From: Candidatus Desantisbacteria bacterium CG1_02_49_89 | GTDB taxonomy: Bacteria; Desantisbacteria; UBA1551 | Assembly (NCBI GenBank): GCA_001871075.1 | Contig: MNUP01000026.1 | Location: 1 to 10,305 of the forward strand | DNA: 10,305 nt | Direction of reading: 5' to 3' | In this document: positions 4,823 through 9,891 of the stretch, in pieces | Position numbering within the stretch: position 1 is the stretch's first letter | Layout: every line of letters starts with the position of its first letter | Made by a program: the position numbers and the translations under genes | Notes under the pieces: model-generated | Seen by the model: the letters and a program-made list of their open reading frames with translations, nothing else | Databases searched by the model: none | Told to the model about the DNA's origin: nothing

Positions 4823-5932
4823 CTATTTACTACTGTTTTTTAAATATTCCCTTACGCCGTTATATATGGCTTCCGCTGCCATCTTCCTGAAAGACTCGGT
4901 CGCAAGCTTTGCTTCCTCCGGCGCGTAGGAGAGGAAAGCAACCTCCACAAGGACTGACGGCGCGGCGACTCCCCTCAGCACGTAAAAAAGCGCTGTCTTT
5001 ACGCCGCGGTCCGTAAGCTTCAGTTTCTTTACCATATTAGCCTGGATGCTGAAGGCAACCATGCTGCTCTCGCGCACGAATTCGTGATAGATCATGTCTT
5101 CAAGGATGGACCTGAGGTATTTGTCTTTTGACACCCCGAGCTCCCTGATCTCCAGGTTCACAACTGAGTTTTCAAGGACTTCAACCGCCCTTGCCTCTGG
5201 ATCAACCGCCTCGGAAACGAAAAAAGTCTCGCATCCCTGCATCTTCGGCGAGAAAGCGGCGTTGCAGTGTATGCTTATGAAAAGCCCCGCTCCCTTCGAA
5301 TTCGCGAAAGTTGCCCTGTTCGCAAGGGTCACGAACGTATCTTCATCCCTTGTCATCAGAACCCTGACCGGCAGGCGCATTGTGATAAGCCCGGCAAGTT
5401 TTCTCGCGATATCAAGATTTATTTCCTTTTCCATCAAACCGTTCGGACCGATCGCACCCGGATCATGGCCGCCGTGGCCAGCGTCAACTATGATGAGATT
5501 GATCTTTGGAATAAATTGTTCTTCCTGCTCCTGCTTCTGCTCCTGCTCCTGCTTCTGTTTCTGCTCCTTTACCTCGTTTTTTACACCTGCTTTTGCTGAT
5601 TCTCTAAGCAATCTGCCTGAAAACGCCTTGACCGCGAAACTGGACGGAACAAAAATAACGCCGTCTAAAATTTTAACCGGTGCTTCAAGGCTGAAAAGCC
5701 TGTTGTTAATAAGAGCGCGCTGGCCCTGCGGGAGCAGAACAACGGTTTCACCCGGCCCTTTCAGGACTATCCTTCCGGGATAGAACTTGTGCTGGTAGTT
5801 AAAACCATATCCCTTGCATATATCTTCCAGCGCGATATATTCCCTGCCGTCGATCTCCGTTGTTTTCAACTCGGCCGCCTGGCAAAAAGATGCAATAAAT
5901 ATAAAAATCAGTATTGAAATATAGGATTTCAT
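4823..5932 (-). CDS. Periplasmic N-acetylmuramoyl-L-alanine amidase (Amidase_3) with N-terminal copper-amine-oxidase-N-like domain
   Basis: 369 residues. Signal peptide at 1-19 (cleavage near QA|AE). Residues 22-108 look like the small stalk domain often called Cu_amine_oxidN1 or AMIN-like (REYIALEDICKGYGF, GVIFVPSSFAVKAF), thought to bind wall or anchor the enzyme. A low-complexity Lys/Gln/Glu linker spans 118-140. The catalytic domain fills 143-365: DAGHGGHDPGA (150-160), EKEINLDIA (168-176), SIHCNA (220-225) and VLVEVAFLS (327-335). Zinc ligands are His153, Glu168 and His222; catalytic Glu330. It cuts the bond between muramic acid and the stem peptide, in daughter-cell separation or wall turnover. 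The ATG overlaps the stop of the upstream four-helix-bundle gene (ATGA at 5929-5932) and no separate ribosome site is seen, so translation is probably coupled. Residues 256-290 resemble the insert near the active site that gates AmiA/B/C-type enzymes. Family certain; exact cellular role inferred. Confidence -1.
   Translation of the reverse strand: MKSYISILIFIFIASFCQAAELKTTEIDGREYIALEDICKGYGFNYQHKFYPGRIVLKGPGETVVLLPQGQRALINNRLFSLEAPVKILDGVIFVPSSFAVKAFSGRLLRESAKAGVKNEVKEQKQKQEQEQKQEQEEQFIPKINLIIVDAGHGGHDPGAIGPNGLMEKEINLDIARKLAGLITMRLPVRVLMTRDEDTFVTLANRATFANSKGAGLFISIHCNAAFSPKMQGCETFFVSEAVDPEARAVEVLENSVVNLEIRELGVSKDKYLRSILEDMIYHEFVRESSMVAFSIQANMVKKLKLTDRGVKTALFYVLRGVAAPSVLVEVAFLSYAPEEAKLATESFRKMAAEAIYNGVREYLKNSSK
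5516..5569 (-). repeat. In-gene GAGCAG/AAGCAG microsatellite encoding the amidase linker
   Basis: A run of hexamers (GAGCAG and AAGCAG in minus-strand reading) encodes residues 122-139, a charged KQ/EQ stretch between stalk and catalytic domains. Six-base units keep the frame if they slip, so linker length could vary between strains without breaking the enzyme. It also yields a spurious poly-leucine frame on the other strand. Confidence -1.
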
Positions 5933-6300
5933 TTGTTTTTGTCAGTTTCTCTTTTTTCTATTCCCAAAATCAGATTGGTAAGCATCCTGCAAACTATATC
6001 CAGATCGTTTCTGTAATTCTCAACCTCGATATTTGTTAAAATCTCGTTGCTCCTGCACATTTCCAATAAAGGAACGCACTCAAAAGCTGACCCTCTTGCT
6101 ATCAGGAAAAATTGCTTTCTATCATTCTTGCTGAACCTACCGTTCCCTTCAGCTATATTAAGGGATATAGACATTGAAGCTCTTCTTAACTGGTCTATCA
6201 AAGAATAATAACCCTTTATTTGCTCAGTTGATTTAGTAATTTTATTACTGAATTCTAAAGCCCTTTTATATACGTCTAATTTTTCAAAAAGAAATGGCAT
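5929..6300 (-). CDS. Four-helix-bundle protein of the 23S rRNA intervening-sequence (S23/TIGR02436) family
   Basis: 123 residues, the typical length. Family signatures are present: FEKLDVYKRALEFSNKI (5-21), YYSLIDQLRRASMSISLNIAEG (31-52) and the following FSKNDRKQFFLIARGSAFEC (56-75), then two more helices. These proteins form pentameric helical bundles; some are encoded inside 23S rRNA intervening sequences, but many, as here, stand alone in chromosomes with no known function. GGAG lies 5 nt before ATG, a firm start. Its stop codon overlaps the amidase start by 4 bp, so the two proteins are made together. Its upstream side is a 252-bp patch of repeats and the tmRNA terminator, which suggests that the four-helix-amidase pair begins its own transcript here. 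Family nearly certain; function unknown. Confidence -1.
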   Translation of the reverse strand: MPFLFEKLDVYKRALEFSNKITKSTEQIKGYYSLIDQLRRASMSISLNIAEGNGRFSKNDRKQFFLIARGSAFECVPLLEMCRSNEILTNIEVENYRNDLDIVCRMLTNLILGIEKRETDKNK

Positions 6301-8578: not shown

Positions 8579-9802
8579 TTATAAGCCGATGCTTTTTAAA
8601 GGTTCAGCAAAGAAATCTTTCAGGCGAATTTGTTTTATTTTGCCTTCTACCCTATTTTTATAATTTGAAACAATAATGCCTTCAGCGTTTTTGTAACGTC
8701 TGACGAATATATTAATCCCATTCGAAATTTTACCATCTGCCCCTGACTTAATTTCTAAAGCAATAATTCTGGACCCAACCTGAATTACGAAATCAACTTC
8801 CAATTGTCTTTCCCTCCAATAGAAGAGGTTTCCGCCCAGGGCTTGCACCGCAAGATACAGTCTTGCCCCTGCTGCGTTTTCAACCATTCTTCCCCAGGAT
8901 ACCTTATCCGCTTTTGTAGTTTTGTAGTCCCTGCCTCTCATAGCGGAGATTATAGCATTGTCAAAAACAAGTAGTTTTGGTATTGAACCTTTTTGCTTCA
9001 CCCTGCTTCCGCTCCACCTTTCCAAAGAACCTGCCAGAAAAGCATTTGACAGTAACTTCAGGTACGAAACCAGAGTAGTAGCGTTCCCCGCATCCTGCAG
9101 TTGTCCCAGCATTTTTTGATAGCTGACTATTTCGGCAGGATGTGCAACGGCAAGGCCAAAAGTCTGACGCAGCAAAGCCGGCTTTGTCACGGGAGACATC
9201 AGAAGCACGTCTTTGGATAGAACGGTTTCTATCAATGAATCACGGATATAGCGCATCCACCTTTCCTCGTCCTTGCGCATGGGAAGCGCTCCGGGATATC
9301 CTCCAAAGTATAAATATTCATTTAGATTAAGAGAAAAACACTCCCTGCATTCAGAAAATGACCACTGGTAATGCCGGTGGAGTTCAAACCGCCCTGCAAG
9401 ACTTTCAGTAAGCCCCCTCTGCATTAAAAGAGCTGAGGAACCCAGCAGAACGGCTCTCAAAGGAGTTTTGTTTCTATGGTCTTCATCATATAACTTTTTT
9501 ACTATTTCACTCCACCGAGGAATTTTTTGAATCTCATCTAATATAAGCAGTGTTTCCTGCTTTTTCTTTTTAGAAAGTAGTCTTGCTTTTAACCATTGTT
9601 CAGCAATCCAATTCGAAGAAGGCGTTTGAGGCAGGTCTGCTGCCTCGTAAATCTTATTGCCATTCCATTCATCCAGGATCTGCATGGCAAGGGTTGTTTT
9701 TCCCACCTGGCGCGGCCCGACAACTGCCTGGATTAAATTGGGCTTGCAGTGCAACACCCGCCATAGAGAGTCGAATAATTTCTTTCTTTTATAGTTTTTC
9801 AC
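8579..9802 (-). CDS. AAA_14 / DUF4143 ATPase
   Basis: 407 residues. N-terminal AAA_14 domain: Walker A GPRQVGKTT (29-37), Walker B LLILDEIQKI (85-94), sensor strand AVLLGSSALLM (117-127) and SLAGRFELHR (134-143). GGYPGAL (167-173) marks the passage to the C-terminal DUF4143 region. That region ends in a nuclease-like strand set, EVDFVIQ (335-341) and IIALEIKSG (346-354), with Asp337, Glu350 and Lys352 placed as in PD-(D/E)xK folds. Such proteins are widespread, patchily distributed and often in accessory DNA; their role is unsettled. The start is GTG; AGGGG lies 5 nt upstream. A perfect 34-bp palindrome ends 12 nt before the start codon, suggesting self-regulation or an RNA hairpin over the ribosome site. 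A 66-bp direct repeat brackets the gene, consistent with a movable unit. No neighbour shares an operon with it. Family sure; function unknown. Confidence -1.
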   Translation of the reverse strand: MKNYKRKKLFDSLWRVLHCKPNLIQAVVGPRQVGKTTLAMQILDEWNGNKIYEAADLPQTPSSNWIAEQWLKARLLSKKKKQETLLILDEIQKIPRWSEIVKKLYDEDHRNKTPLRAVLLGSSALLMQRGLTESLAGRFELHRHYQWSFSECRECFSLNLNEYLYFGGYPGALPMRKDEERWMRYIRDSLIETVLSKDVLLMSPVTKPALLRQTFGLAVAHPAEIVSYQKMLGQLQDAGNATTLVSYLKLLSNAFLAGSLERWSGSRVKQKGSIPKLLVFDNAIISAMRGRDYKTTKADKVSWGRMVENAAGARLYLAVQALGGNLFYWRERQLEVDFVIQVGSRIIALEIKSGADGKISNGINIFVRRYKNAEGIIVSNYKNRVEGKIKQIRLKDFFAEPLKSIGL

Positions 9803-9814
9803 ACCTGCCCCTAT

Positions 9815-9848
9815 TTACAATTTGTTCAGTCGACTGAACAAATTGTAA
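9815..9848. promoter_or_regulatory. Perfect 34-bp palindrome upstream of the ATPase gene
   Basis: TTACAATTTGTTCAGTC (9815-9831) and its exact reverse complement (9832-9848) meet at the central GTCGAC without a loop. Seventeen perfect base pairs are far beyond chance in so short a spacer. It lies 12 nt ahead of the GTG start and downstream of a candidate promoter, the position of an operator or a translation-blocking hairpin. Confidence -1.
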
Positions 9849-9863
9849 GTGATTATGTATAAT

Positions 9864-9891
9864 ATATTACTCATTTTTGATAAAAAGTCAA
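9864..9891 (-). promoter_or_regulatory. Candidate promoter of the ATPase gene
   Basis: On the minus strand TTGACT (9886-9891, 5 of 6 to the -35 consensus) is followed after 16 bp by TAATAT (9864-9869, 4 of 6 to -10). Transcription would start near 9857 and the palindrome would fall in the 5' leader. Predicted from sequence only. Confidence -1.

Follow-up and report, generated by a model that had tools for sequence, protein, structure and literature searches.

Which role is played by a perfect 34-base-pair (bp) palindrome that lies just before the start codon of an ATPase gene? This question is raised by contig MNUP01000026.1 of Candidatus Desantisbacteria bacterium CG1_02_49_89 (assembly GCA_001871075.1). 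Its 10,305 nucleotides are the window, i.e. the whole stretch of DNA analysed here, and represent one entire contig (G000:C34) of a 2.48-Mb genome. The palindrome is interpreted as an operator that the adjacent ATPase, a member of the AAA_14/DUF4143 family listed as phage-defence candidate PDC-S01, would recognise via its DUF4143 winged helix, most likely for autorepression; we assign this reading a probability of slightly below 0.8. It is carried by four computational observations, namely the palindrome itself, its recurrence with an 11-bp geometry upstream of homologous genes, its almost complete restriction to them and the co-variation of its half-sites with the recognition helix of the encoded protein.

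The palindrome and its surroundings

Positions 9815-9848 (TTACAATTTGTTCAGTCGACTGAACAAATTGTAA) consist of two arms of 17 nucleotides each, TTACAATTTGTTCAGTC|GACTGAACAAATTGTAA, which meet without a loop, and the fully symmetric 34-mer centred on GTCGAC that had been described in an initial annotation of the window is thereby confirmed. Base composition predicts 6e-7 palindromes of this kind per window and 1.4e-4 per 2.48-Mb genome; the second-longest loopless palindrome within the window has arms of only 7 nucleotides. The end of the palindrome and the GTG start of the AAA_14-DUF4143 gene on the minus strand are separated by 12 bases. The palindrome core GTTCA-GTCGAC-TGAAC displays the same 11-bp geometry as the sites of the subfamily described below. 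The elements of this region are as follows.

8579-9802, minus strand: gene of the AAA_14-winged helix-PD-(D/E)XK (DUF4143) ATPase, 407 amino acids, GTG start, PDC-S01 (PDLC04791)
9804-9812, minus strand: purine-rich ribosome-binding site AGGGGCAGG, assigned by eye
9815-9848, no strand: proposed operator, perfect 34-bp palindrome, based on symmetry and chance expectation
9824-9828, no strand: first half-site, GTTCA, based on the 11-bp geometry common to the subfamily
9835-9839, no strand: second half-site, TGAAC, inverted and 11 bp from the first, based on the same geometry
9864-9891, minus strand: promoter-like TTGACT-16-TAATAT, a weak consensus match only
9869-9873, minus strand: lone half-site of the subfamily consensus, TGAGT(AA), either a relic or a chance match

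For the promoter that the initial annotation had considered plausible, this sigma-70-like element is a reasonable though not a strong candidate: it matches the consensus at 9/12 positions, and the region contains three such sites compared to 1.8 in shuffled sequences.

Recurrence upstream of homologous genes

In the homologues identified initially, which belong to other taxonomic groups and share 40-49% sequence identity with the window protein, TTTACTCAAtataTTGAGTAAA palindromes are found upstream of the gene, frequently as a series of two or three. When GTDB genomes were scanned, about 70 subfamily members were obtained, and nearly all of them possess a like element 20-85 bp before the start codon; the analysis covered 77 upstream regions of the subfamily from about 20 phyla. 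The half-sites ACTCA/TGAGT occur 171 times in the 77 regions, whereas 8.5 occurrences are expected from control windows. Their orientation alternates and their steps are exactly 11, 22, 33 or 44 bp; the longest arrays line up five or six half-sites on the same helix face, 22-bp direct repeats are present in upstream regions of the subfamily, and in many members the array extends across the start codon.

A motif-free scan, which presupposes only that inverted half-sites alternate at a fixed distance, gives a significant result at spacing 11 in 58/77 regions vs 2/148 control windows, while spacings of 8, 10, 12 and 14 remain near chance. Spacings of 9, 13 and 15 are raised, as their dyad coincides with that of a palindrome made up of two half-sites. 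The proposal that a dimer operator might be common to other AAA_14/DUF4143 genes is supported by this recurrence, and the upstream palindromes whose absence from close homologues would have spoken against it are present.

Sites elsewhere in the genomes

Scattering of the same palindrome over unrelated positions, the second point on which the initial annotation could have failed, is not observed. At up to three mismatches the full palindrome is present as a single copy in its own genome, and in 40 genomes of relatives near-perfect ACTCA sites are located almost exclusively at the ATPase gene. A mobile-element end or a scattered repeat was rejected on account of the single genome copy and the near confinement of the sites to ATPase genes. 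Most of the DUF4143 paralogues in the same genome are devoid of a perfect upstream palindrome, and the ACTCA/GTTCA type is therefore a trait of the subfamily and not of every DUF4143 gene.

A few solitary or displaced sites were noticed. In locus L042 a second perfect ACTCA site (L042:5266) is situated downstream of the ATPase gene at a distance of 1.6 kb and is followed by no further ATPase gene. In the genome of the window itself, a degraded operator core with leader (TTTGTTCAGTCAATTGAGCAAATTGTAAATAGGGG) is found at G000:C71:19172-19191 (L248:1501-1520), where it follows a different DUF4143 ATPase gene by about 110 bp and directly precedes an unrelated reading frame of 493 amino acids; this copy may have been left behind by a gene since lost, or it may serve as a second target. 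In the Chloroflexi locus L164 the operator-start region is duplicated 800 bp apart (positions 1501 and 2302) with no obvious second ATPase gene, and the truncated homologue L018 (G058:C1), which is interrupted by an in-frame TAG, has kept an ACTCA palindrome of the upstream type.

Palindromes of other types were observed as well. An AAA_14 gene that is a paralogue within the genome of the window (L009, G000:C66) is preceded by the tandem palindromes TGTCGGTT-AACCGACA (TGTCGGTTataaACCGACA, TGTCGGTTaataTCCGACA). In a second DUF4143 clade, a different, longer and interrupted palindrome, CCTTGYAAATT...AATTTRCAAGG (CCTTGYAAATTKAAA-loop-TTTMAATTTRCAAGG), precedes the start codon in L114, L116, L120, L033, L237, L240-L243, L246 and L247, among others. 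Judged from these sequences, self-operators may be general across DUF4143 genes.

The encoded ATPase

The window protein matches the Pfam families PF13173 (AAA_14; E=1e-24, 87.4 bits vs a cut-off of 27) and PF13635 (DUF4143; E=6.8e-24, 84.9 bits vs a cut-off of 28.1) as well as the PADLOC model PDLC04791 for PDC-S01 (E=4.4e-145). It comprises the following parts.

9350-9733, minus strand: AAA_14 ATPase domain, residues 24-151, with Walker A motif GPRQVGKT, based on Pfam and invariant residues
8966-9181, minus strand: winged helix-turn-helix, residues 208-279, based on the AlphaFold model
9044-9082, minus strand: predicted recognition helix, residues 241-253, with A241 as best tracker of the half-site, based on model and co-variation
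8666-8905, minus strand: PD-(D/E)XK-like nuclease part, with E308, D337 and E350 invariant and K352 nearly so

In the AlphaFold model (mean predicted local distance difference test score, pLDDT, 94.6) the winged helix is formed by helices 208-220, 228-234 and 241-253 and strands 257-262 and 276-279. The residues G29-T37 (GPRQVGKTT), D89-E90, E308, D337, E350 and K352 are invariant or nearly so, and Walker A and B motifs as well as the nuclease residues are thus intact. The DUF4143 part is read as a nuclease fold because PDC-S01 has been so described (PMC12988326).

A structure comparison of the model, which places it in a group combining an ATPase with a winged helix, gives the archaeal ATPases 2qen (Z 17.2, root mean square deviation (rmsd) 3.1 for 258 aligned residues) and 2fna (Z 16.6, rmsd 3.7, 267 aligned) as top matches, followed by CED-4/NLR and Orc proteins (Orc 1w5t, Z 14.2; 2qby, Z 14.0). 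A sequence search of solved structures returned no convincing match, the best one (E=0.006) being to unrelated ATPases; NCBIfam provides no name for the protein and PHROGs only weak matches of the ATPase type. Viral contigs harbour only distant protein relatives (identity of 35% or less), which were left out of the analysis. As regards an iteron-type replication origin, whose repeats would belong to a replicon and its Rep protein, the observations comprise the 22-bp repeats on the one hand and, on the other, a homologue at E<=1e-40 in only 4/72,556 plasmid records.

Co-variation of half-site and recognition helix

Half-site classes were assigned, partly by eye, on the DNA alone, and only afterwards was the winged-helix region of the proteins inspected. 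ACTCA is the half-site of most members, and GTTCA is found in the window and in L046, L063, L072 and L078. The remaining classes are AGTAG (L056, L085, L093), ACTAG (L094-L096), ATTAG (L079, L104), AGATT (L083, L089), TTTCA (L102) and TTCGA (L107, L108). Among 391 alignment columns, residue 241 has the highest mutual information with the half-site class, and residues 238, 242, 245 and 246 are likewise among the ten best columns. In the model, residue 241 begins the third helix of the winged helix, and the start of a recognition helix is the point at which the major groove is entered.

For phylogenetically independent contrasts, a tree was built without the winged-helix columns. GTTCA requires five changes on this tree, in which a strongly supported group unites the window with L042 and L110, both of the ACTCA type. 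Among 5 independent pairs, C at half-site position 2 and T241 are lost together in 4.67, with 0.0 opposing, which places column 241 first of 368, the runner-up column reaching 3.05. The association held when it was examined again in 54 new, non-duplicate loci from genomes fetched later: a TACTCA, TACTAG or TACGCA half-site is present in 41/42 loci with T241 and in 3/12 with other residues (Fisher 4e-7), a count in which the lone TGAGT(AA) half-site of the window was entered as an exception.

The same exchange is seen at close range. The nearest relatives of the window protein (50-60% identity) combine T241 with ACTCA, as does its closest homologue L207 (60-61% identity), while the window combines A241 with GTTCA. 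Furthermore, two paralogues in the Bacteroidales genome G117 pair GTTCA with V241 and ACTCA with T241, respectively, and a second pair of paralogues with differing sites and helices is found in the Elusimicrobia genome that contains L046 and L085. Since the half-site co-varies with the recognition helix of the winged helix, the ATPase itself, which the initial annotation had named as a possible binder, is the probable binder of the palindrome.

Promoter position and proposed mode of control

Where TTGAC-type promoters are recognisable, the dyad is mostly located at one of two set places. In 13 loci, mostly the nearest relatives of the window, it lies 14-15 bp before the -35 box of promoters that have a spacer of 17 bp and a good -10 box. 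In nine loci it is positioned in the middle of the -35/-10 spacer and the operator arm itself supplies the -10 box (TTGACTTTACTCAATATATTGAGTAAAAT); operators in this place could hardly do anything but block RNA polymerase. Given that the promoter of the gene is overlapped or flanked by its sites, autorepression is probable.

According to the proposed mechanism, a dimer, or a row of protomers where half-sites are repeated, would bind through the DUF4143 winged helix, with one recognition helix per GTTCA half-site and the half-sites 11 bp, or one helical turn, apart around a twofold axis. Physical binding and the dimeric stoichiometry are inferred. Transcription would most likely be repressed rather than activated by sites that overlap or flank the promoter, a contribution of ATP and of the nuclease part would be conceivable, and the outcome would be a self-limiting, self-contained cassette.

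Several points weigh against this interpretation. The window contains one half-site pair only, which in the generic test gives p=0.04, yet the palindrome is perfect over 34 bp. L016 and L100 show no clear site, and the rarer half-site types were classed by eye. Only five independent contrasts exist, with p=0.0625 as the floor of the sign test; the ranking of column 241 is the stronger statement. ACTCA sites occur despite A, V or P at position 241 in L045, L052, L065, L080, L092, L184 and L194, and sites of TCTCA type occur with V in L178, L179 and L181. Finally, in the group nearest to the window, the constant position of the site before the -35 box would be compatible with an activator as well.

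Alternative explanations

The alternative that survives best regards the site mainly as a self-address or assembly platform by which the ATPase/nuclease is held or licensed, for instance inactive at home and freed upon phage infection, with transcriptional control being secondary. With five or six half-sites, the longest arrays exceed what a simple repressor needs, the residues of ATPase and nuclease are conserved, the protein is listed as a phage-defence candidate, and solo sites exist away from the gene (L042:5266 and C71:19172). These solo sites are rare, however, and the fixed positions at the own promoter are fully explained by transcriptional control; this alternative is considered unlikely.

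Binding of the palindromes by a separate transcription factor is considerably less probable. Although the co-variation test is blind to an unlinked regulator, in independent lineages the half-site changes along with the recognition helix of the ATPase itself, the sites in about 20 phyla accompany the ATPase gene only, and paralogues within one cell differ in their sites.

An RNA hairpin in the leader, hiding the ribosome-binding site or ending transcription, is more improbable still. The palindrome of the window would be transcribed, its RNA is predicted to fold at -19.7 kcal/mol (z -5.3), and there is a terminator-like match on the plus strand. Contrary to this, in the 13 relatives the palindrome precedes the -35 box and is untranscribed from that promoter, and a leader hairpin is therefore not the common role. 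Moreover, the 11-bp spacing of a DNA turn and the 22-bp direct repeats are kept, and the sequence is conserved beyond what pairing alone demands. The sequestering hairpin suggested in the initial annotation is hence not supported as a general function, while an additional effect in the window is conceivable from the RNA fold.

An origin by chance or from an unrelated repeat, for example the end of a mobile element, for which other inverted repeats in the window might speak, can be practically dismissed given the expectation of 6e-7 per window and the single full copy in the genome, and is refuted by the recurrence upstream of homologues.

Relation to known systems

PDC-S01, according to its description an ATPase with a fused PD-(D/E)XK fold, is reported to rank fourth in frequency among the defence entries of prokaryotes, with experimental validation pending for most such phage-defence candidates (PMC12988326); in rumen genomes it is the most frequent single locus (PMC13356809). 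The window protein, likewise an ATPase with PD-(D/E)XK fold, corresponds to this COG1373-type ATPase, to which the window adds a proposed self-operator. In the literature searched, which was poor in subscription journals, no description of DNA binding, an operator or self-regulation of PDC-S01/DUF4143 and no functional study of DUF4143, COG1373, PF13635 or PF13173 was found, and text hits to the site sequence itself were unrelated.

Autoregulating helix-turn-helix repressors bind inverted-repeat operators at the promoter of their own gene. Both systems have half-sites in twofold arrangement, separated by about one turn of the helix, at the own promoter; these repressors are small, however, while the protein encoded here is an ATPase-nuclease of 400 amino acids, and operators in its subfamily frequently comprise 3-6 half-sites in alternating orientation. 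The order of ATPase followed by winged helix is shared with archaeal Orc1/Cdc6 and the SSO1545/PABY2304 ATPases, and the winged helix of Orc1 binds repeated DNA boxes. In contrast to these proteins, with which sequence identity is low (10-17%), the window protein possesses a C-terminal nuclease domain; unlike for Orc1/Cdc6, there is no sign of an origin at the window locus.

A wider and rather doubtful extension is that PDC-S01/DUF4143 proteins in general might be self-addressed DNA-binding ATPase-nucleases. Lineage-specific operator codes would be recognised by residues at the start of the recognition helix, 11-bp-phased arrays would nucleate an ATP-dependent oligomer on the own promoter, and this oligomer would be part of sensing or holding off invading DNA, regulation and effector thus being one mechanism. 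For PDC-S01, which is common and functionally unvalidated, the proposed operator, the predicted recognition residue and the paralogue pairs offer a direct handle on the DNA that is read, on switching and on the construction of reporters. If true, the co-variation would yield a set of mutually distinct operator-regulator pairs.

Further observations in the window

At 5929-6300 the window contains a gene for a protein of the 23S rRNA intervening-sequence type (PF05635), next to which no rRNA gene was noticed. At 220-269 an inverted repeat, AATGGGGACTGTCCCGATTTT / AAAATCGGGACTGTCCCCTTT, is present, which we take to be of the GGGGACTGTCCC type, a recurrent repeat in many genomes.
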